From Streptomyces virginiae (GTDB lineage Bacteria > Actinomycetota > Actinomycetes > Streptomycetales > Streptomycetaceae), in NCBI RefSeq assembly GCF_000720455.1, contig NZ_JOAK01000010.1, positions 248,001 through 312,000 on the forward strand: DNA of 64,000 nt, read 5' to 3'. This document shows positions 1,704-26,321 of the stretch, piece by piece (positions within the stretch are counted from its first letter, which is position 1; each line of letters begins with the position of its first letter). The notes beneath the pieces are model-generated. The model did not search any database and was not told where the DNA came from. It saw only the letters and a program-made list of their open reading frames with translations. A program made the translations under genes and the position numbers.

Positions 1704-4700
1704 TCAGCGGCGGTCCAGGAGACCACCTGGTCCGAACAGGCTGGGCCGGGCTTCCTCCGCCGGGTTGCGCATCTGGTTGAGGAGGGAACGCAGTTCCTGT
1801 CGCCAGGGATCGACCGAGTGGACGCGTGACTGCAGCCGTCGTTCGACGGACGGCTTCAGCGCAAGGAGGAGCTGGTGCATTTCCTCGTGGTCCTGTGCAG
1901 TGCGGTATGCGAGGGCCAGTACGCCGAGTGACGCCTCCGCGCTGAGACTCCAGTACGTCTCGTTGACCGAAGGGTCCTCCAGACGGCCGGTGCGAGCGCA
2001 TGCGATCAGCGCCATGGTCGTGAGCTCGGCCTGACACCATGTGCGGGACGACCGTTGGAACGCGGGAAGCGCCTCGTCCAGGGCAGCCTGCTTCCAGGAG
2101 GAGTCGGGCAGCCAGGCGGCCGCCCAGCTCACCTCCGCCCCGTAGGCGCCGTTGACGGGGAGGCTCGGGGCTACATGCGGGAGCAGGTGCTCCTGGCCCA
2201 CCTCGTGGAGGGCTTGCGCAGCCCAACCGATGGTTTTCCAGTGGACTTCGGGGGAGACGACGAGGTGTCGCCGCAGGAACGACTCCAGCACGCGGCTCGT
2301 CGCGACTCCGAAGGCGTCGACGTCCCCACGGTTCAAGGCGTGCAGCCGCCGTAGGAATTGAGCGGATCCACTCAGGCCCAGCCGTTGGGCCAGGACGGGG
2401 TGCCCCTCAGTGCTGATCCTGTCGACGAGGGCGTGGGCCAGGTCCCGTTGACCCGTCAGCGTCAGAATGTGCAGGAGGCCGGGCACTTCCTTCACGTCCG
2501 CCGCGCTCCCGAGGCCGAGCCGGCTCAGGAGCTTGCCGGGGTCGACGCTGGCCGCGATCTCATGTCCCCACTGCTCGTCCCAGATGTAGGTCAGCTTCAA
2601 CAGATCGCGGACCGCACGGGGACTCGCGAGATGGGAAACGATCTTCAGCCACTTCTCGTAGACCAGTGCCTTCATCCAGGCCAGATTGCCTTGCCCGGGG
2701 AGCACACCGAGTCCTGCGAGCTGTCTGCCGATCCTGCCCTGGTTGCTGGGGTCCTGCTCGTACTGGAACTCCTCCGTGAAGGTCGTCCACGCGTGGTGGA
2801 ACTGGCGTAGGACCTCGAGCAGCCGCCGCCCCTGCCCCGGCTGGATCAGATCGACCGAGTGCAGGAGATTGGCCAGCTGGTCCGGTGTCGACACCGACCG
2901 CATGACGGAATCCTGCAGGTAGCTGGACTGCCCGTCCTCCGCCGTCCGGTCCAGCTCGTGGATGACGGTGGTCGCCAGGACGGGATCGAGCTTCCGGAGG
3001 TTGTCGAGCGCCTGGACGAGAGCCGCCGTGGTCGGGGTCTTGCGGATCTCGTCGGCCCAGTCCCAGGAAGGAACGGACTGCTTGAACCGCGACAGCAGCA
3101 GCGCCTGCGCGTTCTCCTCCCCGCTCATGCGCAGGGTCGTCGCGGTGGCCCGAAGACGCTGCGCCACCGAATCCGGGCTGGCCGGAACGAGGGAGACGAG
3201 CAGGCGGTCCATGTCGAACCTGGCCCTGTAGCGCTGGGGGATGTCCGGGTGGACCGCACGGGCCAGCTGGTGCAGGGCGGTGAAGGTCTCCGCCTTCAGC
3301 CCCGGCTCGGTCATCCGCTTGGCGAGGGGCAGGGGATCGAGTGCTTCGGAGAGCTTGGTGAGCAGCTCTTCACCGAAATAGTCGTCTCCGACGAGCAGCA
3401 GTCCCAGCGGGGCTGCCCATGGCCGGTGCAGCCGGTAGGAGGAGCCGATCGACTCGACGATCAGATGGAACGCACTGTCTTCGACGCGGCGCCGGTAGTC
3501 GGCCTCGGCTTCCCAGAGACCGCGCAGGAAGTAGTAGAGGACGGACGGCCGACGTTCGTCGTCCAGAAGCTCAAGGGCGAACTGCTCGCCCAGATGTGCC
3601 GCCAGTGTGCCCGCGAAGGTCTGAGCGGTATGGCAGTACAGCTCATCGACCCGGTGGGTGGTCGACAACAGCCTGCCCGCACCCTTGCCGTCGGTCAGTT
3701 TGCGTACCCGGTTGGCCAGTGCCCGCGCCAGGGAGGCGTCGGCTTCGATGACGCCATCGGCTTCGCGGTACAGCAGGAACCGGACGGTCACGCTGTGGAT
3801 CCTCGAGAGCACGGAAATGAGTTGAGCGGCCTCGGACGGCGCTGCTTCCCGCAGCAGCGCGCGGAACTGCTCCGTGGCACGCACCTTGTTGAGCATCTTG
3901 GTGCAGAAGCCTCGGTGATTGCGTGCCAGGTCGCTCAGGGCCAGACTCACCTCCGCGGCGGTCGCACGCCCGAGCGCTGCCCTCACCTGGAGTTCGTAGG
4001 AGCCGATGAGCTGGTCCCAGTCGATGTCCCGACCGTTGAAGTGGAGCTGCAGGGAGAGCCAGCCGACCACGACACCGAACCTCGCGTTGGCGGGCGGCCG
4101 GTGGTCCAGGACGTCCTGGATCTCCTGGCATCCCTCCAGCGGGCGTCGATGCTGCTGGGCATTCCGGTCCGGCATCCTTCGGTGGCAGCGGCTCAGCAGG
4201 ACGTCGAGCTTGCGCACGTGAATGAGATCCTCGGCCACGAGGGGACGGATGTCCCGCACGAGGGCGTCAGTGGATCTGATGAGCAGCGCCGGGGATTCGG
4301 CGTGGTACAGCCGGAACACCTTACGGGCCAGGTGGTATCGGTCCTCGACCGAGGCCGGCCTGTTCAGCACGGCTTCGAGCCCTTCCCCGGGCTTCCCCAG
4401 CCATTGCACCAAGGCCTCGAACTCTTCGAACTGCTGTGCGTGGTGCTGGTATCGGGAGATGAGTCGCAGAACGGATGACATGGTGCGGGCGGTCAGGCCC
4501 TCGGCGTCGGGCACCCGCTTGAGGATGCCCGGGAGCCTGGTCGGCACCCAGTTCGGTTCGAGGTAGCGATCGCAGACCGTCAGGACCGTGCAAACCGCGG
4601 AAACCTGACCGGTTTGCGTCCACTGCGCCACGGCGTCGCGTACGGCGGACTTGGAGAAGAGTTCCGCCATGAGGATGGAGTCGTACGCATGGCAGGTGCG

Positions 4701-6767
4701 CAGCAGACTGATCAGCTGATGCGGTCGATCGTCGCCGAACAGCTTCAGCAGGTACGACTCCAAGGGAGCCGACATGCTGGCCAGGACGGCGGCCGCAGCG
4801 TTCCCCTCGTCCTTGTCCGGGGCCGCTGTCAGTTCCTTGAGGACCTTCCGGGCGTAGTGACGGCTGGGAATCCTGACCAGGCCCATGGAGCGGCGGGCAC
4901 CGAACCGGTTGAGCGTCTCGGGGGACAGCGCGGACACGTAGTCCTCGGGTACCACGTCACCCAGTTGCGAGACTGCGGCCAACAGCCGTAGCGCCTCCGC
5001 TTCCGCCGGGCCGACCTGGGAGAGAGCGCCGGCCGGGTCCGACGGGGGTGAGTCTGCCTGGGGCGAGGACCGATCGCCCGTCTGCTTGGACGACTCCTCC
5101 CGCATGGAGCGGCTGAGCAGCCACAGGTCTCCCCTGGCCGCCTCCAGCAGCGTCGGCAGGGCGTCCGCTGCCCCGCCGTACACCTGCGGGTGTTCGTCAG
5201 CCATCTGCACGGCGAGCGCCCCGACCTCGCTCTGGCCGACCACGGCCGTCATCGGCGAGACGTTGTTGGAGTCCCACTCCACTCCGGAACCCTCGGAGAA
5301 CCGTGTGAGCGCGAGTACGCCGACGCCGACCTCTCCCACCAGGGCGGAGACCACGCGTCCGACGTCGCCCCGCTCCAACGGGTGCAGGTCTTCGATCACC
5401 ACAAGGGTCTTGACTCCGGGGACGATCCCGGTGAGATGCATCGCGGAGCGGACGATCGCCGGCAGGTCCCCGGGCAGGGGCAGTTGTTTGTCGGCCGGTG
5501 CCACGGCGAGTATCCGCCAGCGTTGTCCTTCCAGCCTGGAGGCCAACTGGCGGGCGATCACACTCTTGCCGCTGTTCGCCGGACCGCCGAGAACCATCCC
5601 CTGCTTCGGCTGGAGAAGGAGTTGCCCGTGAAGCGAAGCCACCTGCGAGGACTCCACGAGTGGCGGCTCGTCAGGGTCTTCCTGCCATACCAGGGCGTCC
5701 TGAACGTCGCGGGATTCGGGGGTCGCGTAGACGATGCTCCAGCGCTGTGCCTGAAGGCTTTCGGAGTGCCACCGGTCCTGGACGCCGTCCCACTCGGAGC
5801 CCCACAGGAGTTCGGCCGCCCCGTTCAGGGAGCGCTCCGCGGACGTCCGCGGAGCACCGCCTTCCTCCAGGGTCCACCCTCCCGCACTGCAGCTGAGGAC
5901 CGCCATCCCCGAGGCGCGGACCGTCTCCCAGAGGTGCAGGTCCTCCGGAGCGGTCCACTGGCCCTCGGGTGTGATGCCGGCCATGACGAAGACGTTCTTG
6001 CGTGCGGGAGAAGGGAGCCCCGTTTCTTGGGCGAGGTAGGTCAGCGCCACGGCCGCGGCGCTGACGCCGTCCTGGGCCGCGGAGGGCGAGTGCAGCCCGG
6101 GCGACGTGAAGGAGACCGTGATGCGCGGCGGCTGCGCCCGCCCCCGGGTCACCGCGAGGCGGCAGGCCTGGACCAACGCCAGCTGGGCCTCGGTCTCGAA
6201 TATCTCACCGGTCGCCGACCAGGGCGGGCTCCCCTCCGCACTCTGCTTGTCGTCCGGCGGGGCTTCCGCCAAGGAGGGGGAGAGCGCGGAGAACTCCGGC
6301 GTCAGGGTTGCGATCGCGGACCAGCCGCCCGCCGGCCGCAGCAACGTGTGAATGGCCTCGGGACCCTCGGGGTGGGGTGTCGGCGGCGCCGTTCGTGACG
6401 TGCCGCCGGAGGAGCTGAGCCGCTCGGCCCGTGCGACGAAGTCGTACAACTTGTCGACCAGTCCGGCTTCCCGCAGGGCCAGCAACTGGGGCTGCAGCCC
6501 TGTGGATCCGGGCTCCATGTCCTCGGCCAGCAGCGCGCCCACGCCGCTCAGCTGCTCCCTGGGCCCTTCGTAGCGGAGCGAGTCCAGGGGGAGCGGCGCG
6601 TCCGCCGTGAGCAGGTGCGTACGAGCGACGAGGGTCCGCACGAGCTGGAGCGCTTCGACGGGCGAGCCTCCCGGGCGCTGGGTGAGCGCCGCAATCGCGT
6701 GCAGCACGAGGAGGGTGTCGTATGTGGTGCGTTCGGCGGTCGGCTCGGTCGTGGTGCTGTCCGGCAA
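1704..6767 (-). CDS. Large Lon(S16)-like / P-loop NTPase protein with helical tail
   Basis: A 1687-residue protein, the last gene of a three-gene operon, starting at TTG 6767 behind a GGGGGAAAAG ribosome-binding site, 42 bases after the caspase gene's stop. Residues about 190-300 resemble a Lon (S16) protease fold: a QDGVSAA segment (Ser236) stands where Lon has DGPSAG, but the Lon catalytic lysine region reads EDLHLWETV, with no obvious lysine. Residues 394-402 form a Walker A motif (GGPANSGKS) and 455-460 a Walker B motif (LVVIED). From about residue 500 the protein is long, mostly helical and repeat-like with no recognised domain. The build (effector-like or regulatory N-terminus, NTPase switch, long superstructure-forming tail) is that of STAND/NLR-like signalling ATPases. 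The ligand and the outcome are unknown. Confidence 0.75.
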   Translation of the reverse strand: MPDSTTTEPTAERTTYDTLLVLHAIAALTQRPGGSPVEALQLVRTLVARTHLLTADAPLPLDSLRYEGPREQLSGVGALLAEDMEPGSTGLQPQLLALREAGLVDKLYDFVARAERLSSSGGTSRTAPPTPHPEGPEAIHTLLRPAGGWSAIATLTPEFSALSPSLAEAPPDDKQSAEGSPPWSATGEIFETEAQLALVQACRLAVTRGRAQPPRITVSFTSPGLHSPSAAQDGVSAAAVALTYLAQETGLPSPARKNVFVMAGITPEGQWTAPEDLHLWETVRASGMAVLSCSAGGWTLEEGGAPRTSAERSLNGAAELLWGSEWDGVQDRWHSESLQAQRWSIVYATPESRDVQDALVWQEDPDEPPLVESSQVASLHGQLLLQPKQGMVLGGPANSGKSVIARQLASRLEGQRWRILAVAPADKQLPLPGDLPAIVRSAMHLTGIVPGVKTLVVIEDLHPLERGDVGRVVSALVGEVGVGVLALTRFSEGSGVEWDSNNVSPMTAVVGQSEVGALAVQMADEHPQVYGGAADALPTLLEAARGDLWLLSRSMREESSKQTGDRSSPQADSPPSDPAGALSQVGPAEAEALRLLAAVSQLGDVVPEDYVSALSPETLNRFGARRSMGLVRIPSRHYARKVLKELTAAPDKDEGNAAAAVLASMSAPLESYLLKLFGDDRPHQLISLLRTCHAYDSILMAELFSKSAVRDAVAQWTQTGQVSAVCTVLTVCDRYLEPNWVPTRLPGILKRVPDAEGLTARTMSSVLRLISRYQHHAQQFEEFEALVQWLGKPGEGLEAVLNRPASVEDRYHLARKVFRLYHAESPALLIRSTDALVRDIRPLVAEDLIHVRKLDVLLSRCHRRMPDRNAQQHRRPLEGCQEIQDVLDHRPPANARFGVVVGWLSLQLHFNGRDIDWDQLIGSYELQVRAALGRATAAEVSLALSDLARNHRGFCTKMLNKVRATEQFRALLREAAPSEAAQLISVLSRIHSVTVRFLLYREADGVIEADASLARALANRVRKLTDGKGAGRLLSTTHRVDELYCHTAQTFAGTLAAHLGEQFALELLDDERRPSVLYYFLRGLWEAEADYRRRVEDSAFHLIVESIGSSYRLHRPWAAPLGLLLVGDDYFGEELLTKLSEALDPLPLAKRMTEPGLKAETFTALHQLARAVHPDIPQRYRARFDMDRLLVSLVPASPDSVAQRLRATATTLRMSGEENAQALLLSRFKQSVPSWDWADEIRKTPTTAALVQALDNLRKLDPVLATTVIHELDRTAEDGQSSYLQDSVMRSVSTPDQLANLLHSVDLIQPGQGRRLLEVLRQFHHAWTTFTEEFQYEQDPSNQGRIGRQLAGLGVLPGQGNLAWMKALVYEKWLKIVSHLASPRAVRDLLKLTYIWDEQWGHEIAASVDPGKLLSRLGLGSAADVKEVPGLLHILTLTGQRDLAHALVDRISTEGHPVLAQRLGLSGSAQFLRRLHALNRGDVDAFGVATSRVLESFLRRHLVVSPEVHWKTIGWAAQALHEVGQEHLLPHVAPSLPVNGAYGAEVSWAAAWLPDSSWKQAALDEALPAFQRSSRTWCQAELTTMALIACARTGRLEDPSVNETYWSLSAEASLGVLALAYRTAQDHEEMHQLLLALKPSVERRLQSRVHSVDPWRQELRSLLNQMRNPAEEARPSLFGPGGLLDRR

Positions 6768-6809
6768 ACTCTTTTCCCCCTGAGTCGATGCGGCTGTGTC
6801 GAGCAGTCG

Positions 6810-9800
6810 TCAGAATGTGATGCGTGCTGTACCGCGGTTGGTGCAGACGACGAGCCGGCCCGCGTCTTCCAGGTCGGCAGCCTTGATCTGGATGCCCAGG
6901 TCCGCCGAGACCGCAGCGAGACCCGGAGAGGCCGGGTCGAGTGGGGTGAGGCGCACGATGCCGTCGAGGCTGGTGGTCAGCAGCAGTGCGCCTTCGGCGA
7001 TGCGGCGCACCTTCATGGAGGTCACGGGCTGGTCATGTCGTGTGATGCAGTGCTGGTCCGTGCCGTACGCACTGCTGCGGAAGACGGTGCCGTCGTTGCT
7101 CGCCGTGAGGACATCGCCCTCGTACGACGCGATGTGAGTGAGCGCTTGGCGCTGCGGCGTCATGAACGTACGCTGCAGCGTGCCGTTCGGTGCCCACACC
7201 GCCACCTCGCCCGAGGAGCAGCCCACGGTCCAGCCCAGTTCTGGGAGTGCCAAGGTGGCCACCGAGGCCAGGACCAGTCCGCCCGTGTCGACGGGCAGGT
7301 CGCTGACGCCGGCCAGCCCGTAGCGCCGCCACGCGTGTGCCGTGGCCACCAGCAGCCCTTCGGTACCCACCTCACAGGCGACGATGCGGTCCGCGAAGGG
7401 GCGGGGGTCATCCATGGCATAGCGCTGACCAGTACCCAGGTCGTGGAGGACGACCCCGCCGTTCCAGGTGCCGAGGGCGGCGAAGGGCTTGCCGTTGAGC
7501 AGGCCGGCGCTCAGCGCGGAGACCGGGTCGTGCACTCCGGAGACCGGGTCGCCCACCGCCTCCAGCTCGCGCAGTCCGAGCCGGTCCCGCTCGCCGACCA
7601 GGGCGCCTCCGTCCTGTGTGCCGACGACGAGGAAGCTGCCGCCACGAACAACCGGCACACCTGTGACCGCGTCGGTCGGTACCCGGTGCACCCACGTGCT
7701 GTTCCAAAGCTTCTGCTTGCCCCCGGTGTTGCGCGCGAGTTCGGTCTGTTGGTGCGCCTGGGCGAGGAACTCCAGCCGCGATACGTCGGCCTCGTCCTCC
7801 CGGTTGCTGCTCCGCAGCAGGTCCATCAGCTCCCGCACGGCACGGGCCCGTGGCGTGCCGGCCAGTGTCAGGGCGCGCCGCAGGCGCATCGGGTCGACGG
7901 AAAGAAGGAAGTCCGGGTCCGTGAGGAAGTCGTCCAGCAGCCCGGCGCGTTGGGCGTGCTCGGCGAAGTTGCGGCGCGTGTAGTCATCGGCGGCCGACCA
8001 CTGGGGCTTGCGGTCCGGACCTGTGCCCAGTGCCTCGACCAAGGCACTGGTGAAAGCGGCATGCGCCTGTGCGGTGTCGTACTGCTGAGCGAGGAAGGAG
8101 GCGAACTCCTCACGCCGCAGGCGCCATCCGGCTGTGTTCGCGCTGCTCTGCGCGTCGGTGATGAACTCCTCCGCCGCGTGCAGGAGGCGATCGAGCGCAT
8201 CGTGGTCCACCCGCCGGGCGGTGAGCCGCTGGACGACGTCGATCCACAGCGAGAAGTTCGGCATGCCGGCGCCCAGAGCCAGCGCCAGGGGCGTCAGCAG
8301 ATCCTTGGCCCATGCGGGATCGTCCCGCTCCACACGGGCCAGCTGCTGCTCGAAGACGTCCACCACGGAGGTCTGCACTGCGGCCTCGTCTTGTGTCGGC
8401 TCTCGTCCTGCCAGATCGATGGAGAACAGATATGCCCGGAGGAAGGAGGTGTGGGACCGTTCGCGAACCCCTGCGGCGAGGTGTTCGAGCTGCTGCTGAG
8501 GCATGTCCTTGTGCAGAGACCCCTGGCGGCGGGCAAGGATGGTGCGAGAGAGCAGTTCGATGTCCTCAGGCTCGAAGTACTCGGGGCCGGCGAGCGGTAT
8601 CTCGCGCGCGCCCAGCCTGCTGAGGGGCGTCTCGGCGGCGACCACCAGGCGAATCGTGTCTATCGCGCTCAGCGGCAGGAGCACCTTCTCGATGAACTCC
8701 TGGAGGGCCGTGGGGTCTCCCACGTCGACGGCGTCGGTGGGGCCCACCCGGTTCACCGAGTCGATGAGGAGGCCCCTGGGAGCGGGCAGGGCATCCAGCG
8801 CCCGGAAGAACGCTTCGGGATCGTCCTGGTAGGGCACTCCCAGTTCGTTTCCGATCTCTTCCAGGACGAGGTCCCAGACGAGGCCGTACGCCTGCACCAG
8901 CGCGACGCTGCCACGGGGCACCCCGATCACGTCGGAGCCCGCGGCGGTCGGCAGGGGCTGTCCCTCCGAAGCCGCGGCGAGAGCGGCGAGCAAGGTGGAC
9001 TTGCCCGAGCCGGCATGGCCCGTCACCACGATGGGGCGTCGGTCGGGGTCGGTTCCGCTCACGTGCGGGACCAGTTCCCCCAGGGCGCGCTTACGGCCGC
9101 AGAAGGCCCAGCCGAAGCCCTCCGTGGCCTCGGGCATGTACTGCGGGCGGCGCTTGCGGAAGCGTGGGTTGGGGAAGGCGCGCAGCGGACGCTTGCCCAC
9201 GCTGCTGGGGGTGTGGCACAGGACCGACTGGCCGACCCTTCCCAAGCGGTGGTTCATGTCCCGGCAGAGGACGGCGGCTTCGACGTACTGCAGGCTGTTC
9301 GGTACTCCGGGGCTCTTCAGGGACGCAGAGAAGGCGTCCGCGAAGGCCAACTGGTGGGCCTCCTCGTTGCGGCCCGCGGCGGTGATCAGGTAGACGTCGG
9401 GGCCGATGTTTCCGATCTTGGCGATGCTCTCCTCCAGATGGAGGAAGGCGTCCCCGGCCGACCCGGATTCGCAGGCGTCGAACATGACGACCACCTGGTC
9501 CGGACCGGGTTGGTTGACGAGGCTCGCGATCTCGTGCGCCGAGATGCTGGTGGCGAAGTCCTCGCTGGTTCCGCAGGTGCCCTTGAAGGTGGCCAGCCGG
9601 TAGTCGGCATTGGTGGTGTATCCGTGTGCGGAGTAGTACAGCACCACGGCGTTCGGGTGGGCTCCTGCCTCCTCGCCGCCCATGGCCCGGCCCACCGCGC
9701 GCTTGAGGTCAGCGGGTGTGGGGTCGAGCGAGACATCGTCGAGCACTTCCAAGCCGACGTCCTTGAAAACGCTGCGGACGAGCGCGACCTCCTGCGGCAC

Positions 9801-9899
9801 GTAGGGAAGCGGCTCCAGGCCCGCCCCGTACAGCTGGGTGCCGGTGACGACGCAGACGCGGCGGAGCCCGTCCCGGGCCTCAGGCCGCGCCGAGGCCAT
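6810..9899 (-). CDS. Caspase-like peptidase - P-loop NTPase - WD40 repeat protein
   Basis: 1029 residues. The open frame extends further upstream, but ATG 9899 is chosen because the caspase fold starts there (LRRVCVVTGTQLYGAG) and it overlaps the upstream gene's end by 20 bases. Residues about 10-200 are a peptidase C14 (caspase/metacaspase) domain with the catalytic pair visible: His92 in YYSAHG and Cys143 in FDACESG. A STAND-type NTPase follows, with Walker A GHAGSGKS at 294-301 and a Walker B-like LLIDSV near 377. The C-terminal 300 residues read as WD40-type beta-propeller blades (for example TASNDGTVFRSS and TTSLDGIVRLT). Such fusions are known in bacteria as candidate NLR-like sensors: the propeller senses, the NTPase oligomerises, the caspase cleaves. 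Cytoplasmic. The target is unknown. Confidence 0.85.
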   Translation of the reverse strand: MASARPEARDGLRRVCVVTGTQLYGAGLEPLPYVPQEVALVRSVFKDVGLEVLDDVSLDPTPADLKRAVGRAMGGEEAGAHPNAVVLYYSAHGYTTNADYRLATFKGTCGTSEDFATSISAHEIASLVNQPGPDQVVVMFDACESGSAGDAFLHLEESIAKIGNIGPDVYLITAAGRNEEAHQLAFADAFSASLKSPGVPNSLQYVEAAVLCRDMNHRLGRVGQSVLCHTPSSVGKRPLRAFPNPRFRKRRPQYMPEATEGFGWAFCGRKRALGELVPHVSGTDPDRRPIVVTGHAGSGKSTLLAALAAASEGQPLPTAAGSDVIGVPRGSVALVQAYGLVWDLVLEEIGNELGVPYQDDPEAFFRALDALPAPRGLLIDSVNRVGPTDAVDVGDPTALQEFIEKVLLPLSAIDTIRLVVAAETPLSRLGAREIPLAGPEYFEPEDIELLSRTILARRQGSLHKDMPQQQLEHLAAGVRERSHTSFLRAYLFSIDLAGREPTQDEAAVQTSVVDVFEQQLARVERDDPAWAKDLLTPLALALGAGMPNFSLWIDVVQRLTARRVDHDALDRLLHAAEEFITDAQSSANTAGWRLRREEFASFLAQQYDTAQAHAAFTSALVEALGTGPDRKPQWSAADDYTRRNFAEHAQRAGLLDDFLTDPDFLLSVDPMRLRRALTLAGTPRARAVRELMDLLRSSNREDEADVSRLEFLAQAHQQTELARNTGGKQKLWNSTWVHRVPTDAVTGVPVVRGGSFLVVGTQDGGALVGERDRLGLRELEAVGDPVSGVHDPVSALSAGLLNGKPFAALGTWNGGVVLHDLGTGQRYAMDDPRPFADRIVACEVGTEGLLVATAHAWRRYGLAGVSDLPVDTGGLVLASVATLALPELGWTVGCSSGEVAVWAPNGTLQRTFMTPQRQALTHIASYEGDVLTASNDGTVFRSSAYGTDQHCITRHDQPVTSMKVRRIAEGALLLTTSLDGIVRLTPLDPASPGLAAVSADLGIQIKAADLEDAGRLVVCTNRGTARITF

Positions 9900-10722
9900 C
9901 CGCGATCCCCTTCGCGGCCTCAGCGGTCGTGAGATAGCGAAGGACGGAGTGCATGGCGAACCGGCCGTTGCGGACCGGCATGTCCTCGATGTCCTTGCCG
10001 AAGAGCGGGGCCAGCTCTTTGACGAGGGCGACCGGGTCCTCCACGGCGGCGATGTTGATCCAGCGTCGAACGCCCGGCCACTGCGCTTCCTGACCCTGCA
10101 CCAGTGGGGGCCGTAGCCGGGACGAGATGGCACCGAGCCCGAGTGGCGACCCCAAGGTGATCAGGGTGTCGACCTCCCACTCCGGATGGGCGCACAGCGC
10201 TTCGTATGCGACCAGGCTGCCGAGCGAGTGGGCCACGACGACCCGCGTGTCAGAGGTGACGACGCCATCCCAACGGGCTTGTACGGCCTCGCGAAGGGCT
10301 TCCTCGGTCAGGTACCGGTGTACCTGCTTGATCATCCAGATGATGGCCTTGGCGGGGACGTCGCCCAGCAACTTGCTGCGTTCCAGGCGCCTGAGCAGGC
10401 TCTGCACGGCGCCCTTCGTGCCGGCCTGCGCTGCCTCCGTGTTCTCGGCGAGGGCGCGTAACAGTTCCAGCTCGAGGTCGGCGCGGAGGTCGACGGGCCC
10501 GTAGTTGGGAAGGCCGGCGAACTCGTCCGGGCCGGTGGCGCTCTTGGACCCGGCGGAGCGGAAGCAGTTCCCGTAGTAGACGGCTGCCACGCCCGTCTCC
10601 TCCACCGGCTCGAAGCCGGTGTCGATCATGCCGGTCCGAAGCGCCTTGTACCACTCGGAGTGCATGCCGTCGCGATGCTGGTACGTGTAGCCGATTCCAT
10701 GGCACATCACGACCTTCGCCAT
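9880..10722 (-). CDS. Alpha/beta hydrolase, first gene of the conflict-type operon
   Basis: 280 residues, starting at ATG 10722 behind a GAGAGGA ribosome-binding site. An N-terminal VVMCHGIG segment gives a typical oxyanion strand, the nucleophile elbow is AHSLGS with Ser166, and a late MHSVLRYL histidine is a candidate for the triad. An insertion of about 80 mostly helical residues separates the first strands from the elbow. No signal peptide is seen. It could act as a lipase, esterase or peptidase. Its stop (9880) overlaps the caspase gene's start (9899), so the two are translationally coupled. In bacterial conflict systems alpha/beta hydrolases can be effectors or accessory enzymes, which would fit here. 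The substrate cannot be told from the sequence. Confidence 0.75.
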   Translation of the reverse strand: MAKVVMCHGIGYTYQHRDGMHSEWYKALRTGMIDTGFEPVEETGVAAVYYGNCFRSAGSKSATGPDEFAGLPNYGPVDLRADLELELLRALAENTEAAQAGTKGAVQSLLRRLERSKLLGDVPAKAIIWMIKQVHRYLTEEALREAVQARWDGVVTSDTRVVVAHSLGSLVAYEALCAHPEWEVDTLITLGSPLGLGAISSRLRPPLVQGQEAQWPGVRRWINIAAVEDPVALVKELAPLFGKDIEDMPVRNGRFAMHSVLRYLTTAEAAKGIADGLGAA

Positions 10723-10904
10723 GCTTGTCCTCTCGCCACGACGGGGGCGCGCGTCAGTGGCACCCGACGGCAGCAGGGTAGCGGTGAAACAGCAGCAATG
10801 TCGGCCAAGTCGGCAGGGAGGCCGCAGACTTCGGATGCCCCGCCGACGCCGAGCGGTACGAGGCCCGGCAGCAGGGCTGCCGGTCCGACGGCCGAGGTGC
10901 CGCC

Positions 10905-11753
10905 CTACCCTCCGGTGCGGGAAGGATCCGTACCGAGCCGGGTGAGGGCCTCGGCCGTCGGGGTGCCGGGGGCGGGCTGGTAGACGATGAGTTGCTGGCC
11001 CGGGGCGGCGCGGACGTCGAAGGACTGGTAGGTCAGGGTGAGGGGGCCGGCCACCGGGTGGTGGAGGTGCTTCGCGTCCTGGGTCTTGGTCAGGACGTCG
11101 TGGGTGGTCCACAGGCGGGCGAAGTCGGGGCTGCGGGCGGTGAGGGTCCGGACGAGGTCGCGCAGGCGGGCGTTGTCCGGGGCGATGCCGGTGGCCGCGC
11201 GCAGGTGACCCGCCGTGGCCCGGGACGTGGAGGTCCAGTCCGGGTAGAAGTGGCGGGCCGCCGGGTCGAGGAAGACCATGCGGGCCAGGTTGTCCGCCGG
11301 TGAGAACGGCGAATGCAGGGCCAGGGCGCAGGCGTTGGCCGCCAGGATGTCCAGGGCGGTGCTGACGACGAAGGCGGGGCAGTCCGAGAAGCCGTCGAGG
11401 AGCCGGCGCAGGGCCGGGTCGACCCGGTCGTGGGCCGGGCGGTCGGCCGGGCGCGAGCCGGCCAGGCGGTGCAGGTGGGCGTGGGCGTCGGGGCGCAGGC
11501 GCAGGGCGTGTGCGAGCGCGTCGAGGACCTGGGCCGAGGGGTGGCGCTCGCGACCCTGTTCCAGGCGGGCGTAGTAGTCCACGTTCACGTCGGCCAGGAC
11601 GGCGACCTCCTCGCGGCGCAGACCGGCGACCCTGCGTACGCCGTGGCTCGCCATGCCGACGTCCTGGGGTCGCAGGGCCGCCCTGCGCGCGTGGAGGAAC
11701 TCGCCGAGGGCCCGGTCGGCTGCCCGGTCGGCCGTGGTCGTCGTCGGGGTCAT
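10905..11753 (-). CDS. XRE-family regulator with MmyB-like ligand-binding domain
   Basis: 282 residues. The N-terminus (about 15-75) is a helix-turn-helix of the type FLHARRAALRPQD...RREEVAVLADVNVDYYARLEQG. The remainder matches the MmyB-like PAS-related domain found in many Streptomyces regulators (ALDILAANACALALHSP, then MVFLDPAARHFYPDW). This family usually regulates a divergent oxidoreductase gene, and here it is divergent from a short-chain dehydrogenase across a 139-base gap that carries an inverted repeat. It is probably an autoregulated repressor of that gene, with an unknown small-molecule ligand. It is unrelated to the preceding operon, from which it is separated by 182 bases. Confidence 0.88.
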   Translation of the reverse strand: MTPTTTTADRAADRALGEFLHARRAALRPQDVGMASHGVRRVAGLRREEVAVLADVNVDYYARLEQGRERHPSAQVLDALAHALRLRPDAHAHLHRLAGSRPADRPAHDRVDPALRRLLDGFSDCPAFVVSTALDILAANACALALHSPFSPADNLARMVFLDPAARHFYPDWTSTSRATAGHLRAATGIAPDNARLRDLVRTLTARSPDFARLWTTHDVLTKTQDAKHLHHPVAGPLTLTYQSFDVRAAPGQQLIVYQPAPGTPTAEALTRLGTDPSRTGG

Positions 11754-11785
11754 GGCCCCAGGTTAGGCCGTGGGGGTGGGCCCTG

Positions 11786-11806
11786 CCCGGGTGTGCCGCA
11801 CCCTGG
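11786..11806. promoter_or_regulatory. Candidate operator between regulator and dehydrogenase
   Basis: An imperfect inverted repeat, CCCGGGTG - 5 bases - CACCCTGG (one mismatch), lies in the 139-base gap between the divergent regulator and dehydrogenase genes. The position and symmetry suit a dimeric helix-turn-helix protein. No clear -10/-35 elements could be assigned. Confidence 0.35.
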
Positions 11807-11892
11807 CAACGCGCGTCCTGGTCGGCCCCCTTCCGCTCGCGAAGACTCGGTCGGGCAGGACGGACCTGCGACCGTTCGAGGGGTAGGGCAGC

Positions 11893-12618
11893 ATGACCAA
11901 GGTCGTGGCAATCACCGGAGCGAGCAGCGGGATCGGGGAGGCGACCGCCAGGCGGCTCGCCGCCGACGGGCACCGTGTGCTCCTCGGGGCGCGGCGCACC
12001 GAGCGGCTCGAAGCGCTGAGCAAGGAGATCAACGCCGCCGGCGGTGCCGCGGCGTACCGGCGGCTCGACGTGACGGACGCCGCCGACGTGCGGGCCTTCG
12101 TGGCCGCGGCGGGCGAGCGGTACGGGCGGCTGGACGTGATGGTCAACAACGCCGGGGTGATGCCGCTCTCGCCGCTGGACGCGCTCGCGGTGGACGAGTG
12201 GGACCTGATGATCGACGTGAACGTACGGGGAGTGCTGCACGGGATCGCCGCAGCCCTGCCCGTGATGCGGGCCCGGCGCGCCGGGCACATCGTGAACATC
12301 GCCTCGGTGGGCGCCTACGAGGTGTCGCCCACCGCCGCCGTGTACTGCGCCACCAAGTTCGCCGTACGGGCCGTCTCCGAGGGGCTGCGGCAGGAGTCCG
12401 GCGGTGACGTACGGGTCACCCTCGTCTCCCCGGGGGTGACCGAGTCCGAACTCGCCGACCACATCAGCGACCCGGCGGCGAGGGAGGCCATGCGGGCCTA
12501 CCGCGCCGTGGCGCTGCCGGCCTCCGCCGTCGCGGACGCCATCGCCTACGCGGTGTCCCAGCCGCCGGAGGTCGACGTCAACGAGATCGTCGTCCGTCCC
12601 GCCGCGAGCGCGCAGTGA
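11893..12618 (+). CDS. Short-chain dehydrogenase/reductase (SDR)
   Basis: 241 residues of a classical SDR. The cofactor motif TGASSGIG is at residues 8-15, the NNAG motif is in VMVNNAGVMP, and the catalytic Ser...YxxxK set reads NIASVGAYEVSPTAAVYCATK. An Arg in the GARRTER stretch after the second strand suggests NADP(H). It is probably a cytoplasmic oxidoreductase of a small carbonyl or alcohol substrate. It lies opposite an MmyB-type regulator, the usual arrangement for a regulated SDR, and its stop overlaps the next gene's GTG (GTGA), so the two are coupled. The substrate is unknown. Confidence 0.9.
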   Translation: MTKVVAITGASSGIGEATARRLAADGHRVLLGARRTERLEALSKEINAAGGAAAYRRLDVTDAADVRAFVAAAGERYGRLDVMVNNAGVMPLSPLDALAVDEWDLMIDVNVRGVLHGIAAALPVMRARRAGHIVNIASVGAYEVSPTAAVYCATKFAVRAVSEGLRQESGGDVRVTLVSPGVTESELADHISDPAAREAMRAYRAVALPASAVADAIAYAVSQPPEVDVNEIVVRPAASAQ

Positions 12619-13166
12619 CCGCCCCGGCGGATGACGGCGGCCTGGTCCGCCGGCTGCGCGTGCTGGAGGACAAGGAGGCACTGCGCTGCCTGCTGGTCCG
12701 TGGGTGGCGGGCGCTGGACGGCAAGGACTGGGCGACCTGGGCCGAGTGCTGGGCCGAGGACGCGGTGCTGGAGTTCGGGCCGTGGGGGGAGATACGCGGC
12801 AGGGAGGCGATCCGGGAGCAGGTGGAGGAGGCGGAGGCGCCCTTCCCGAGCATGCAGCACCACATCCTCAACACGCACTTCGAGGTGGACGGGGACCGGG
12901 CGACCGGCATCGGCTACATGTGGTTCGTCGCCGTCACGGGCAACGGGGCGCCCTCCGCCCCGTACTCCATGGGAGGCCCCTACGACTGGGAGTTCCGCCG
13001 GGCCCCGGACGGCGGCTGGCGCCTGGTCCGCCAGAGGCTCGGCGTCTGGTGGACCGCCGGGGAGGAAACCGGCCCCGAAGCCTTCCGCCGGCGCGCCGTT
13101 GCGTCGATCTCGTCGCGCGGGCGGGGCCCGACAATGGACGGGATGCCCCAAGCGCACGAGAGCTGA
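12615..13166 (+). CDS. SnoaL/NTF2-like fold protein
   Basis: 183 residues, starting at GTG 12615 in a GTGA overlap with the dehydrogenase stop. The sequence follows the SnoaL-like (NTF2 superfamily) pattern: a helical start (LEDKEALRCLLVRGWRALDGKDWATW), AECWAEDAVLEFGPWGEIRGREAI, then beta strands with HHILNTHFEVDGDRA. Members are small cyclases, isomerases, dehydratases or non-catalytic binding proteins. Coupling to the SDR suggests that it acts on the same metabolite. The last 30 residues are probably disordered. Confidence 0.75.
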   Translation: MTAPADDGGLVRRLRVLEDKEALRCLLVRGWRALDGKDWATWAECWAEDAVLEFGPWGEIRGREAIREQVEEAEAPFPSMQHHILNTHFEVDGDRATGIGYMWFVAVTGNGAPSAPYSMGGPYDWEFRRAPDGGWRLVRQRLGVWWTAGEETGPEAFRRRAVASISSRGRGPTMDGMPQAHES

Positions 13167-13176
13167 GGAACGGTCG

Positions 13177-13677
13177 ATGGAGTCGTACGCCTGCCCGCCC
13201 GCCGAGGACCCGCTGTTCGGAACGGTCACCGTCGAACTCGACCATGAGGCGGGCACGCTCGTCGTGGACGGTGACGGGGTGCCGCGGGCCGAGGTGCGGC
13301 GGGTCGGCGGTGCGGCGGTGGAGAGCCACGTGCCGATCGGGACGCGGGACCCCGAACGCCTGGTGATGGACGTCGGGGGAGCGGAGGTGGGGCTGCGGCC
13401 CGCCAAGGGGTTCCTGACGCGCGGGTCCTACCGGGTCGACGTCGGCGAGCACCGGTTCGTTCCCGTCTCGCTCGACGGCAGCCGGCTGTCGCGGGGCGGT
13501 GTGGCCCTCGGGGTCTTCGTGTCGACCGGCGACGGGCGGGTGAGCGCCGAGTGGGAGGAGGGGCGGCCGGAGGCGTACGACGCGGCCGTCGGGTACGCGC
13601 TCGCCGCGGCGTTCGGGACCGGCGCCGAGCCCATGTGGAAGCTCACCCTGGACGCGGTACTGGAGTTGTGGCCCTGA
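13177..13677 (+). CDS. Conserved-type hypothetical protein
   Basis: 166 residues, starting at ATG 13177 after a GAGGAA ribosome-binding site and 10 bases after the SnoaL-like gene, so it is probably in the same transcript. The protein is rich in predicted beta strands (FGTVTVELDHEAGTLVVDG, SYRVDVGEHRFVPVSLDG) with one C-terminal helix (YDAAVGYALAAAFGTG). There is no signal peptide, membrane helix or catalytic motif. I do not recognise the family. Confidence 0.65.
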   Translation: MESYACPPAEDPLFGTVTVELDHEAGTLVVDGDGVPRAEVRRVGGAAVESHVPIGTRDPERLVMDVGGAEVGLRPAKGFLTRGSYRVDVGEHRFVPVSLDGSRLSRGGVALGVFVSTGDGRVSAEWEEGRPEAYDAAVGYALAAAFGTGAEPMWKLTLDAVLELWP

Positions 13678-13789
13678 AAACCGGAAACCGGAAATTGGCC
13701 ACCTGTTCATCCGCGGCTATTGAGTGCGGCGGCGGCGTGGATATCGTGTCACGAGGTATCCGTGAACCGACTCCGCATCGAGGAAAACC

Positions 13790-14623
13790 ATGAGCCAATC
13801 AGGGCGAACGGCAAGGCCGCGGCATTATCTGATGTGTCGTCCGCACTACTTCGACGTACGGTATTCGATCAATCCGTGGATGGACCCCACGAAGCCCACG
13901 GTGACGGAAACCAGCCTTTCCCAGTGGAAGCGGCTGCATGATCTGTTCGTCGAGCTCGGGCACCGGATCGACCTCATCGAGCCGGTGCCCGACCTGCCCG
14001 ACATGGTGTTCGCGGCCAACGGGGCGACCGTGCTGGACGGGCGGGTGCTGGTGGCCCGGTTCCGGCACAGCTACCGGGTCGGGGAGTCCCCGGCGTACCT
14101 GGACTGGTTCGCCGAGCGGGGGTGGGGCGAGGTCCGGCAGGCGGAGTACGTGAACGAGGGCGAGGGCGACTTCCTGCTCGCCGGCGACACCCTCCTGGCG
14201 GGCAGCGGGTTCCGCAGCGACCCGCGCTCGCACGAGGAGGCCCAGGAGTTCTTCGGGCGCCCGGTCCTCGGATTGACGCTGGTCGACCCGCGCTTCTACC
14301 ACCTCGACACCGCCCTGTCGGTCCTCGACCGCGACGAGGTCATGTACTACCCGGCGGCCTTCTCCCCGGAGAGCCGCGAGGTGCTCGCCGAGCTGTTCCC
14401 CGACGCGATCCAGGCCGAGGAGGCCGACGCGGTGGCGTTCGGGCTGAACGCCGTCTCCGACGGCCTGCACGTGGTGCTGCCCGAGCAGGCGCGGGGGCTG
14501 GCCGCCCAGCTCGCGGAACGCGGCTTCGAGCCGATCGGCGTCGACCTGTCCGAGTTGCTCAAGGCCGGCGGCAGCGCAAAGTGCTGCACGCTGGAACTGC
14601 GTCCGGCGCCCGCCGCCGACTGA
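13790..14623 (+). CDS. DDAH-type amidinohydrolase (dimethylargininase-like)
   Basis: 277 residues, starting at ATG 13790 with a GAGGAAAA ribosome-binding site. It belongs to the guanidino-group-modifying (pentein) superfamily, DDAH branch. Visible landmarks are CRPHYFDVRYSINPWM near the start, LPDMVFAANGA, the catalytic histidine in RFYHLDTALSVL, and the nucleophile cysteine in GGSAKCCTLEL near the C-terminus. The expected reaction is hydrolysis of an N-methylated arginine or related guanidine to citrulline plus an amine; an ornithine/arginine-related substrate is also possible. It stands alone, followed by a 36-bp perfect palindrome that probably ends the transcript. Confidence 0.85.
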   Translation: MSQSGRTARPRHYLMCRPHYFDVRYSINPWMDPTKPTVTETSLSQWKRLHDLFVELGHRIDLIEPVPDLPDMVFAANGATVLDGRVLVARFRHSYRVGESPAYLDWFAERGWGEVRQAEYVNEGEGDFLLAGDTLLAGSGFRSDPRSHEEAQEFFGRPVLGLTLVDPRFYHLDTALSVLDRDEVMYYPAAFSPESREVLAELFPDAIQAEEADAVAFGLNAVSDGLHVVLPEQARGLAAQLAERGFEPIGVDLSELLKAGGSAKCCTLELRPAPAAD

Positions 14624-14719
14624 CCCGGCCGGTCGTGTCCGGCGCCCGCGCCGGCCGTCCGTATCCGCTTCCCGGGAGCGCATCGGCCGGTATTCGGGCG
14701 GCGCAATTCACGGCACCAC

Positions 14720-14755
14720 CCGCGGGGTCGTCCTGTCGACAGGACGACCCCGCGG
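14720..14755. terminator. 36-bp perfect palindrome, probable terminator
   Basis: Two 18-base arms pair without mismatch or loop, centred on GTCGAC; the arms begin CCGCGGGGTCG. It lies 97 bases after the DDAH gene stop. As RNA it would fold into a very stable hairpin. There is no T-run, as is common in Streptomyces. It could also serve as a protein-binding or cruciform site. Confidence 0.6.
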
Positions 14756-14936
14756 TCGCATTTCGGGGCGCCGTGAACTCTTATGCGTTCCGCCGGATAA
14801 TTCGAAATGCACGCCGCCCGGGAATCCCCCTGCCGCGACCCGCGACACCTGCGGCCCCGCGACCCGCGTGAGGCCGGTCCGCACCGTCCCGTGCTGTCGT
14901 GCGTGGATGTGCAGCGCGCGCCACCGCGCCCCGTGG

Positions 14937-15052
14937 TGGCGCCGCCATGGCTCAGCTTGGCTCATCGATGGCACACTGCCTGACCTGCGGTTTTGGAAAT
15001 GGTGGCACATGTGGCGCCAGATTGGCTCGCCATGGCGCCACTTGTGTGTCAT
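14937..15052 (+). promoter_or_regulatory. Repeated TGGCGCCA / TGGCACA boxes upstream of the RHH gene
   Basis: Two perfect TGGCGCCA palindromes at 15012-15019 and 15033-15040 are 21 bases apart, two helical turns. Related boxes occur at 14937 (TGGCGCC), 14969 (TGGCACAC) and 15003 (TGGCACAT), and a GTGTGTCAT box at 15044-15052 is nearly the inverse of the one at 14968. The cluster ends a few bases before ATG 15063. The same-face spacing suits cooperative binding, possibly by the ribbon-helix-helix protein encoded just downstream. Confidence 0.45.
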
Positions 15053-15062
15053 GCTGTGGGAC

Positions 15063-15602
15063 ATGGACCTCAGCCCCTATGTCGCAAGTCTTCGGCACGA
15101 GCTCGCGGTGGCCGCCGATGCGGGCGGCGAAGAAGCCCGCGCTCTCGCCGAGCGCCTCACCGCCCCGCTAGAGTCGGCAGCCAGACTCACCCTCCTGACC
15201 GCCCTGTCGGACGCCATGGGCGAGGTCACCCGGGAGCTCGCTCCCGGTTCGGTCGACGTACGGCTGCGGGGGCTCGATCCCGAGTTCGTCGTGACCGCCC
15301 CGCCGAAGGAAGAGCCCTTCGGGGCGGGCGGCTTCGACGAAGCGCCCGCGGCCGCCCTGCCCGCCGTGCCGCTCGCGCCGGAAGGGGAGGACAGCAGTAC
15401 CGCACGCATCAACCTCCGACTCCCCGGCCACGTCAAGACGCGGGCCGAACAGGCGGCGGCCCGTGAGGGGCTCTCCCTCAACGCCTGGCTCGTCAGGGCG
15501 GTTTCGGGCGCCCTGGAGACCGGCGGCGCCCGGCCGCCGGCCGACACGCAGGCGCCCCGGCGCGGCAGCGGCAGGCGGAGCTTCACCGGCTGGGTGAGCT
15601 AG
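15063..15602 (+). CDS. Ribbon-helix-helix (HicB/Arc-like) DNA-binding protein
   Basis: 179 residues, starting at ATG 15063. The open frame extends upstream, but that part lies in the repeat-rich control region and lacks protein character. The N-terminal half is helical (SPYVASLRHELAVAADAG, AARLTLLTALSDAMGEV). The C-terminal region has a ribbon-helix-helix motif of HicB type: ARINLRLPGHVKTRAEQAA then EGLSLNAWLVRAV. No toxin partner is adjacent; a DUF4097 gene and a drug-type ABC exporter follow. It probably regulates this small cluster and itself rather than serving as an antitoxin. Confidence 0.8.
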   Translation: MDLSPYVASLRHELAVAADAGGEEARALAERLTAPLESAARLTLLTALSDAMGEVTRELAPGSVDVRLRGLDPEFVVTAPPKEEPFGAGGFDEAPAAALPAVPLAPEGEDSSTARINLRLPGHVKTRAEQAAAREGLSLNAWLVRAVSGALETGGARPPADTQAPRRGSGRRSFTGWVS

Positions 15603-15731
15603 CACCGCGACCGGTGCCGCAGGCGCGGCACCGGGGCACACGACACCGGCGTACGGGAGCCGACCACTCCCGCGTCGTCTTCACGTCCCCGGAGCGGGGG
15701 CGGCCACCAGACCCACGAGGACGGGACAGCC

Positions 15732-16580
15732 ATGCCTTCTTACGAGACCAAGGGACCCATCACCGCGACCATCCACGTCGAGGTCGGAGTCGCCCGGATC
15801 AGCGCGTCGGACCGCACCGACACCGTGGTCGAGATCCACCCGCGCACCGCCGGGGACAAGGACGACCAGCGCGCCGCCGAGGAGACGAAGGTCGACTTTG
15901 CCGACGGGAACCTGACCATCCGCACCCCGAAGGCGCGCGGCCTGTTCAGCGCCCGCGGCTCGGTCACCGTCGACGTCGCCCTGCCCGAGGGTTCGCGCCT
16001 GCTCGGCACCCTGGAGATGGGCGACATCACCTGCAAGGGAACGCTGGGCGAGTGCGAGGTCCGCACCAGCGCCGGCTACATCCGCCTCGACCAGGCCGGC
16101 CCGGTCAGGCTCAAGACCCAGCACGGCGACATCCAGCTGGACTCGGCCGCCGGCGACGTGGACATCACCACCGGATCCGGCGAGGTCAGGGTCCGCGCGA
16201 TCGGCGGCGACGCCGACATCAAGAACTCCAACGGCAACACGTGGCTGGACGACGTGGCGGGCGATCTGCGACTGAAGGTCGCCAATGGAAACATCACCGT
16301 GGGCCGGGCGCAAGGGTCCGTGTCGTCAAAGAGCTCGAACGGCAACGTACGCATCGAGGAAGTGGCGCGGGGCACCGTCGAGCTCCAGACTAAAGCCGGC
16401 AACCTCGAAGTCGGGATCCGCCAGGGGACTGCCGCCTGGCTCGACATCAACTCCCAGTCCGGGACGGTCTACAGCACCCTCGGATCCGCCGAAGGCCCCA
16501 CCGAGGGCGCGGAGACCGTCAAGGTGCACGCGAGGACCAGCCTCGGTGACATCACCATCCAGCGTGCGCACGGCGCCTGA
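15732..16580 (+). CDS. DUF4097 family beta-strand repeat protein
   Basis: 282 residues, almost entirely short beta repeats of the type GDITCKGTLGECEVRTSAG, GDIQLDSAAGDVDITTGSG, GNITVGRAQGSVSSKSSNG. This predicts a right-handed beta-helix/solenoid (DUF4097). There is no signal peptide, so it is probably cytoplasmic, although family members elsewhere are often exported. It sits between the ribbon-helix-helix gene and the ABC exporter, 45 bases before the ATPase gene, an arrangement that I recall as common in Streptomyces. The function is unknown; a scaffold or sensing role for the exporter is possible. Confidence 0.85.
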   Translation: MPSYETKGPITATIHVEVGVARISASDRTDTVVEIHPRTAGDKDDQRAAEETKVDFADGNLTIRTPKARGLFSARGSVTVDVALPEGSRLLGTLEMGDITCKGTLGECEVRTSAGYIRLDQAGPVRLKTQHGDIQLDSAAGDVDITTGSGEVRVRAIGGDADIKNSNGNTWLDDVAGDLRLKVANGNITVGRAQGSVSSKSSNGNVRIEEVARGTVELQTKAGNLEVGIRQGTAAWLDINSQSGTVYSTLGSAEGPTEGAETVKVHARTSLGDITIQRAHGA

Positions 16581-16625
16581 CGTCAGAGCTCTGCCTCGCA
16601 ACAGCTACGAAATGGAGGGGGCACG

Positions 16626-17639
16626 ATGAGTGCCGCGACCGAACAGATGGCCCCGCCCAGGGGAATCAGCGCAGTCGGCCTGCGCAAGTCGTACGGCGAG
16701 AAGCTCGTACTCGACGGGATTGACCTGCACGTGCAGGCGGGCACGATCTTCGCCCTCCTCGGTCCGAACGGCGCGGGGAAGACCACCACCGTCCAGATCC
16801 TCTCGACGCTGATCTCCGCCGACGGCGGTGAGGCGACCGTCGTGGGGCACTCGCTCGACCGCAGCGCGGACGCCATTCGTGGCGAGATCGGTGTCACCGG
16901 ACAGTTCGCGGCGGTGGACGGACTGCTGACCGCCGAGGAGAACATGCTCCTCATGGCGGACCTGCACCACCTCGACCGCGCGGAGGGCAAGCGCCGCACC
17001 GCCGAATTACTCCGGCAGTTCGAACTCACCGAGGTCGCCGGGAAGATGGCCTCCACCTTCTCCGGGGGCATGCGCCGCAAGCTGGACCTGGCGATGACCC
17101 TCGTCGGCAACCCCAGCCTGATCTTCCTCGACGAGCCGACCACCGGCCTCGACCCGCGCAGCCGCCGCACCATGTGGCACCTGATCCAGCAGCTCACCGC
17201 CCAGGGCGTGACCATCTTCCTCACCACGCAGTACCTGGAGGAGGCCGACCAGCTCGCCGACCGGATCGCCGTCCTCGACAAGGGCAAGATCGTCGCCGAG
17301 GGCACCGCGGACGAGCTCAAGCGCCGGATCCCCGGCGGCCACATCCGCCTCCAGTTCTCCGACGTGCTCAGCCTGGACGCCGCCGCCCGCCGCCTCGCGC
17401 TCGGCCCCGGCGCCCGCGACGAGGAGAAGCTCACCCTGCAGATCCCCAGCGACGGCAGCATCCCCGCGCTCCGCTCCGTCCTCGACCTGCTGGAGAGCGC
17501 CGGAGTCGAGGCGGACGCGCTGACCGTCCACACGCCCGACCTGGACGACGTCTTCCTCGCCCTCACCGGCGACGGCTCCCGCCACCACGCCACCACCGTT
17601 CCCAGCCCCGCCGACGCGGTGAAGGAGGCCCGGCGATGA
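16626..17639 (+). CDS. DrrA-like ABC transporter ATP-binding protein
   Basis: 337 residues. The nucleotide-binding domain has Walker A GPNGAGKT (46-53), a Q-loop at TGQFAAVDGLLTAEEN, signature FSGGMRRKLD, Walker B LIFLDEPTTGLD and a switch region with TTQYLEEAD. The C-terminal 100 residues match the DrrA-family extension. It pairs with the membrane protein encoded at once downstream (ATGA overlap) to export a hydrophobic compound or drug. It is upstream of the NRPS cluster but separated from it by two hairpins, so whether it exports the peptide is uncertain. Confidence 0.93.
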   Translation: MSAATEQMAPPRGISAVGLRKSYGEKLVLDGIDLHVQAGTIFALLGPNGAGKTTTVQILSTLISADGGEATVVGHSLDRSADAIRGEIGVTGQFAAVDGLLTAEENMLLMADLHHLDRAEGKRRTAELLRQFELTEVAGKMASTFSGGMRRKLDLAMTLVGNPSLIFLDEPTTGLDPRSRRTMWHLIQQLTAQGVTIFLTTQYLEEADQLADRIAVLDKGKIVAEGTADELKRRIPGGHIRLQFSDVLSLDAAARRLALGPGARDEEKLTLQIPSDGSIPALRSVLDLLESAGVEADALTVHTPDLDDVFLALTGDGSRHHATTVPSPADAVKEARR

Positions 17640-18433: not shown

Positions 18434-18460
18434 AGAGCTCCACCGCACGCACCGCAACGC

Positions 18461-18500: not shown

Positions 18501-18509
18501 GCCGTGTTC

Positions 18510-19696: not shown

Positions 19697-26320
<6,624 letters not shown>

Positions 26321-26321
26321 A

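Follow-up and report, generated by a model that had tools for sequence, protein, structure and literature searches.

Introduction

Several described bacterial systems come close, in one part or another, to the locus considered here, a set of three genes (the trio) in a 64,000-nucleotide stretch of Streptomyces virginiae DNA (contig NZ_JOAK01000010.1; hereafter the window, meaning the whole stretch). As described in the portions of the published texts available to us, every caspase-bearing VMAP (MoxR-vWA) ternary system, a kind of predicted conflict system of multicellular bacteria, has a gene for an alpha/beta hydrolase next to it (Kaur et al., 2020; PMC7159879), and VMAP-like systems have diversified sensors (PMC10907252). 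EACC1-caspase systems carry up to 50 C-terminal domains, STAND NTPases included (PMC7159879). A second account names nSTAND1 in these systems, links caspases to AP-ATPases and predicts alpha/beta-hydrolase domains to be effectors acting on membrane lipids (PMC8195603). In the antiphage system Canu, the caspase activates a partner nuclease (PMC12799240), and in Caulobacter the tripartite, NLR-like LypABC resembles CARD-NLR defence and drives lysis for the release of gene-transfer agents (PMC13236601).

The trio codes for an alpha/beta hydrolase (gene 1), a caspase joined to a P-loop NTPase (gene 2) and a giant protein with a degenerate Lon fold ahead of a STAND/NLR-like module (gene 3). An earlier note, made from the DNA letters and their translations, had picked out three minus-strand genes with a 20-base overlap and a 42-base gap as a candidate undescribed conflict or defence system; the coordinates, the overlap and the gap were confirmed (Table 1). 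Like the VMAP systems, the trio has a caspase protein and an adjacent hydrolase gene, a likeness that lies in the adjacency of the two genes (in the window and 7/7 other loci) and does not imply the same hydrolase family. Unlike them, it has its caspase fused to a probable STAND P-loop NTPase, the C-terminus being weakly WD40-like, and has as its third part a giant STAND-like protein of the pseudo-Lon kind. Canu too has three genes, with a caspase and an effector enzyme in one operon, but its effector is a gated nuclease of the metallo-beta-lactamase fold, whereas the trio has a serine alpha/beta hydrolase and a caspase fused to an NTPase switch. LypABC and the bacterial CARD-NLR systems are tripartite like the trio, with two peptidase-bearing proteins and an NLR-like ATPase needed for lysis; the LypA peptidase, however, is trypsin-like, and the available text of PMC13236601 has no caspase component and uses the word 'hydrolase' 0 times.

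The claim of an undescribed system stands in part. No characterised system with all three parts was found in the literature searched, and no description of gene 3 or of a two-switch trio was found there among the matches listed (titles and abstract openings; the supplementary tables of Kaur et al. may list such loci). The word 'Lon' is absent from the text of PMC7159879 as available to us. The hydrolase-caspase pairing has already been reported (Kaur et al., 2020), and that part is therefore not new. The trio appears to set this known pairing on a STAND-like chassis and to add a third component for which no description was found. With a probability of about one half, we read it as an NLR-like cell-death switch of Streptomyces that is co-inherited and apparently moves horizontally, a cassette of two switches.

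Results

Evidence for a conserved three-gene unit

A pattern scan with the gene 3 alignment alone, over a collection holding one genome per species (84,980 species), yielded seven further loci (L001-L007), all in Streptomyces. The scan uses two short peptide patterns and may omit records very near the window's own, so that the count is at least 7. Homologues of genes 1 and 2 were found by tblastn at 7/7 of these loci, in the same gene order, and the view that the three genes belong together, checked in this part, held for the window and all seven other loci. Gene 3 identity to the other loci runs from 84% down to 25%, and the overlap of the gene 1 and gene 2 frames, 20 bases in the window, is 20, 20, 4, 8, 8, 8 and 8 bases in L001 to L007. 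Over 28 pairs, which are not independent of one another, the identities of the three proteins co-vary (Pearson 0.984-0.996; Spearman 0.69-0.79, with many distant pairs tied). These comparisons support the view that the three genes form a conserved, co-inherited unit. There are hints of further trios, e.g., in S. ziwulingensis, as candidates whose loci were not read directly.

The gene 2 frame continues upstream without a stop as far as a GTG at 10133; its start was taken as the ATG at 9899 because the equivalent ATG is the first start of the frame in L002, with the same overlap. The start codon of gene 3 is TTG, and its counterparts in L001 and L002 begin in the same way. Since the frames of genes 1 and 2 overlap, translational coupling of the two is likely. 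That the three genes are accidental neighbours, or belong to unrelated metabolism, would be in keeping with the peptide/polyketide biosynthesis region which the window trio adjoins, but the same trio in the window and 7/7 other loci, in several unlike surroundings and with the frames of genes 1 and 2 overlapping, already makes this very improbable.

Table 1. Features of the trio and their positions in the window
Feature	Position	Strand	Details
Gene 1, alpha/beta (lipase/esterase-like) serine hydrolase, 280 residues	9880..10722	-	Candidate triad Ser166, Asp229, His258
Gene 2, caspase and P-loop NTPase, 1029 residues	6810..9899	-	Caspase about 13-220; P-loop 294-301; His92/Cys143; C-terminus weakly WD40-like
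Gene 3, 1687 residues	1704..6767	-	Helical N-terminus; degenerate Lon fold about 136-326; STAND/NLR-like NTPase about 347-735; then an alpha-solenoid reaching residue 1190 or beyond
Overlap of genes 1 and 2, 20 bases	9880..9899	-	4-20 bases across the window and 7 other trio loci
Gap between genes 2 and 3, 42 bases	6768..6809	-	5-121 bases at the other 7 loci
Codons for gene 2 residues 240-241, caspase-NTPase junction	9177..9182	-	Putative self-processing site

Apparent movement of the trio and its genomic surroundings

The window matches L002 at 86% over 9,023 columns spanning the trio, together with one 109-base match just upstream, and blastn gave no other match between them in the flanking sequence that was compared, which in the window ran over 1-1700 and 10725-22000. 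In the flank comparison, the mutual matches for L001-L002 and for L004-L006 were likewise confined to the trio region. L004, L005 and L007 have flanks in common and are therefore not independent insertions. Since the window and its nearest relative are homologous only as far as the edges of the cassette, the trio seems to move horizontally as one unit. In the window, the GC content at third codon positions (GC3) is 0.85-0.88 for the trio and 0.90-0.95 for six neighbouring genes; at the other loci the GC content of the trio relative to its flanks is mixed, being lower in L002, L003 (slightly) and L006, and higher in L001, L004 (left flank only), L005 and L007. Carriage by phages or plasmids was considered and set aside: gene 3 had no match on plasmids or on IMG/VR contigs. 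Gene 1 had none in named phages, and a viral scan with gene 1 alone was also empty. With gene 2, only two plasmid records matched, both of them hydrolase-caspase pairs.

The earlier note had suggested looking for known defence genes nearby. Ten flanking open reading frames compared with PADLOC gave no convincing defence neighbour, and a defence island is not supported. The strongest flank match to PADLOC (mad8/SspH models, L003:17067-21269) was rejected as a defence gene: the protein has FtsK/SpoIIIE domains and a subtilase gene lies nearby, a combination which we take to be secretion machinery. When the trio itself was compared with PADLOC, gene 1 had no match, and genes 2 and 3 matched only weakly, through their P-loops (best E 0.0004).

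The same switch may serve another purpose, as a device by which the mycelium lyses in a programmed way or develops, or one triggered by stress or competitors, rather than acting against phage. The lack of a defence-island context among the flanking frames scanned suits this reading, as do the restriction of the 7/7 trio loci found to Streptomyces and the example of LypABC, which looks like CARD-NLR defence yet drives lysis for gene-transfer-agent release (PMC13236601, in the text available). Trio-limited homology between unlike flanks and a GC3 below that of the window neighbours fit an accessory mobile set better, and we hold a lysis or developmental role to be possible, though on the doubtful side.

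Several other genes in the surroundings were recorded. Just upstream of the window trio, on the same strand (10905-11753), lies a gene for an MmyB-like transcription regulator (MLTR ligand-binding domain and helix-turn-helix), without a match in L001-L007 in the blastn comparison of the window flanks. About 500 bases upstream of the L002 trio, also on the same strand, is a gene for a sigma-70-family sigma factor (L002:4455-5525). The peptide/polyketide biosynthesis region occupies window 18539-63706, with a thioesterase, nonribosomal peptide synthetase genes, a cytochrome P450, an FAD enzyme and a second thioesterase. Condensation, adenylation and carrier domains of the synthetase type are found at 19697-26320 and 47680-50859, and polyketide synthase modules on the minus strand. 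A frame of 5858 codons (26310-43886) also lies within this region.

Gene 1 is a serine alpha/beta hydrolase

Gene 1 had been called an alpha/beta hydrolase from a short motif, and this proved sound. Ser166, Asp229 and His258 are invariant in 122/122 rows of the alignment, and the predicted structure (predicted local distance difference test, pLDDT, 90) matches lipases and esterases. On its sequence and predicted structure we therefore assign gene 1 to the serine alpha/beta hydrolases, with an intact Ser-Asp-His triad. By analogy with Canu, gene 1 was also considered as a proenzyme with a conserved cut site; no conserved loop was found, and this was set aside. In the second trio clade, the segment around residues 55-72 is shorter.

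Gene 2 joins a caspase to a probable STAND NTPase

Gene 2 had been described as a caspase-NTPase-WD40 protein, of which the first two parts stand and the third is only weakly seen. Its caspase domain matches PF00656 at 39 bits, above the cut-off of 21.4, and PF00656 was matched in 8/11 family members (E up to 0.01). In the alignment of 11 rows, from which P0133 and the distant P0138-P0143, out of the 11 hits of the protein search, were left out, His92 and Cys143 of the catalytic dyad are invariant (11/11), as are Gly294, Gly297, Gly299 and Lys300 of the P-loop (11/11). From its sequence, gene 2 thus carries a caspase (Peptidase_C14) domain with intact dyad residues. The NTPase part matches AAA_16, NACHT and nSTAND1, all under the curated cut-offs, and these models were found in 10, 5 and 4 of the 11 members (E up to 0.01). 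Alignment by hhalign of the gene 2 family with four Streptomyces caspase-NTPase proteins (P0138-P0141) gave E 1.2e-72 over 725 columns, which run from the caspase through the NTPase into the region that follows and leave out the C-terminus. The NTPase of gene 2 is probably of the STAND type.

In three of the four proteins, most of the C-terminus has WD40-type Pfam annotation. Compared with them, gene 2 has a short C-terminus in which WD40 is barely detectable (E 0.03; WD40-type models in 2/11 members, E up to 0.01), and none of the four has the junction-motif Arg. This residue, Arg240, is invariant in 11/11 rows and lies in the junction after the caspase, R-[AV]-[FL]-P-[ND]-P. A like junction motif was seen in 7 of 14 related non-trio proteins, of which the five P proteins were inspected with a slightly looser form of it than the nine proteins from the loci, and the preceding Arg (two residues before) in 0/7 of them. 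The motif lies near residue 240-250 in five (L009, L028, P0138, P0139 and P0140, with P0138 and P0140 near-identical) and at another place in two (L015 and P0141). Cleavage after a basic residue is common among bacterial caspases and metacaspases, and Arg240 is put forward only as a candidate processing site. Pfam detected no nuclease domain in the trio.

The gene 2 caspase also bears on the possibility that the trio belongs to one of the conflict systems already published, VMAP or EACC1, and simply has an unusual third gene. As described in the available text of Kaur et al. (2020), caspase-bearing VMAPs always adjoin an alpha/beta hydrolase and EACC1-linked caspases can bear STAND NTPases; moreover, the gene 2 caspase scores 64.9 bits on NCBIfam caspase_w_EACC1 (NF047832). 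This score is far below the cut-off of 140, however. In the two-gene EACC1 system, the 5' gene codes for the membrane protein EACC1, whereas the gene 5' to the caspase gene in the window and 7/7 other loci codes for the hydrolase, and a Pfam scan of neighbouring proteins (a subset of the flank frames, some picked mechanically) detected neither a MoxR nor a vWA domain. Membership of either system is improbable.

Gene 3 is a probable pseudo-Lon STAND-like protein

In the predicted structure of gene 3 residues 1-1190 (pLDDT 82.4; predicted template modelling score 0.74), a Lon protease-domain fold is followed by a STAND/NLR-like NTPase and then by an alpha-solenoid, and the Lon proteolytic-domain fold is supported by structure comparison. 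We assign the NTPase to the STAND type, with superstructure-forming repeats after it. In its P-loop (394-402), Gly395, Gly400 and Lys401 are invariant in 14/14 rows. The earlier description of a 1687-residue Lon-like-NTPase-helical protein agrees with this model. When Ser679 and Lys722, which we take to be the catalytic dyad of Escherichia coli Lon, were mapped onto the gene 3 family, the Lys722 column held L, G, A or R in 13/13 rows, and the Ser679 column held Ser in 0/13, with a Ser one residue off in 6/13. A profile alignment of the gene 3 Lon domain with the single E. coli Lon sequence found nothing, so the mapping rests on MAFFT, which gave the same result under three settings and may be off by one at Ser; the loss of Lys is independent of such a shift. 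Since the catalytic Lys is gone in 13/13 rows, the Lon-like domain is probably not a protease. It differs from the proteolytic domain of Lon proteases in this loss, in the unconserved Ser and in sitting before a STAND/NLR-like module.

In the earlier note, two NTPase switches with different N-terminal domains had suggested a sensor-effector cascade. Two P-loop NTPases are indeed there, with genes 2 and 3 alike only along 70 columns at the P-loop (probability 16, E 0.0017), but the Lon-like domain, without its catalytic Lys, is probably not a third effector. An active effector at this position was rejected for now, despite the Lon fold. Among the gene 3 relatives seen, only the distant metagenomic P0012 (1664 residues) keeps both Lon Ser and Lys; it is possibly an active Lon-STAND protease.

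Foldseek placed the STAND proteins SAMD9 and EfAvs5 (the latter a SIR2-STAND protein by title) among the best matches to gene 3 (E 6e-7 and 5.6e-5). Their template modelling scores against gene 3 are low (0.15-0.23), and the matches therefore mean a common class at most, not kinship.

The hydrolase-caspase pair occurs without gene 3

Nine of the 47 plasmid-collection records matching gene 1 (a non-random choice from the best 20) were sampled together with 11 IMG/VR loci. Gene 2 profiles matched a neighbour in 7/9 of the former and in 2/11 of the latter (L015 and L016), and the gene 3 profile matched 0/20 within the stretches sampled. The seven plasmid-collection pairs are from Embleya (L008), Rhodococcus (L009), Leptolyngbya (L011), Nonomuraea (L012) and Streptomyces (L026, L027 and L028). 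L026 was matched with the caspase-plus-NTPase profile only, L011 in effect by its caspase part alone (equal score with both profiles), and the gene 2-like neighbour in L027 is divergent; in L013 the gene 2 profiles found no caspase neighbour. The pair thus recurs in actinobacterial and cyanobacterial records by profile, and on an alphaproteobacterial plasmid by annotation. Since it is present without gene 3, we take the hydrolase-caspase/NTPase pair to be widespread and gene 3 to be a Streptomyces add-on, as far as sampled.

Some of these loci have features of their own. On the conjugative Sinorhizobium plasmid pSinB (L010:4078-6913), soon after repABC, an annotated caspase-family gene overlaps a gene-1-like hydrolase in reversed order; neither Pfam nor the gene 2 profiles confirmed this caspase. 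The Leptolyngbya locus (L011:9572-17112) pairs the hydrolase with a caspase protein of 2216 residues that has PIN-system domains (HTH_upst_double_PIN and a weak PIN-TPR-GreABC) and a very different C-terminal part. In the Streptomyces plasmid locus L028:6864-13861, a WD40 protein, a hydrolase, a caspase/NTPase-like protein and a second WD40 protein are encoded by separate genes.

An add-on gene 3 might be a brake or decoy, which holds the hydrolase-caspase pair inactive or is a substrate of the caspase, so that its loss or cleavage fires the pair. The existence of the pair elsewhere without gene 3 agrees with this, and the loss of the Lon Lys suits a binding role. The invariant P-loop of gene 3, however, fits an active switch, and a pure substrate needs none; we consider the brake or decoy unlikely.

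Discussion

Sequence and predicted structure give the folds of genes 1 and 3, the conserved residues, the gene order, the overlapping frames and the cassette-like inheritance; the order of action, the trigger, the target and the immune purpose are inferred. Taken as a cell-death switch, the trio would act in the following way. Gene 3, STAND-like and with a degenerate Lon fold in the effector position, would be the sensor or helper, its solenoid binding the trigger. It would then recruit or license gene 2, in which nucleotide exchange and oligomerisation, as in STAND proteins in general, would gather the caspase domains. The active caspase would process itself, perhaps at the invariant junction Arg, and act on or with the coupled hydrolase. 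Finally, the lipase-like hydrolase would attack the lipids of the membrane, or esters of another kind, and so kill the hyphal compartment that is infected or under stress.

A narrower form of this cell-death reading, which we offer tentatively, is paired-NLR bacterial immunity: a dead-Lon STAND 'helper' and a caspase-STAND 'executor' that turns on a lipase, i.e., two switches in series controlling membrane lysis, comparable to the sensor/helper NLR pairs of plants.

Bacterial relatives of caspases and NLRs bear on the origin of cell-death immunity in animals and plants. A small cassette that can be transferred, and that combines a caspase and a lipase-like enzyme with two NLR-like switches of different kinds, would make both the sensor/helper logic and the coupling of caspase to lipase testable in a tractable host.
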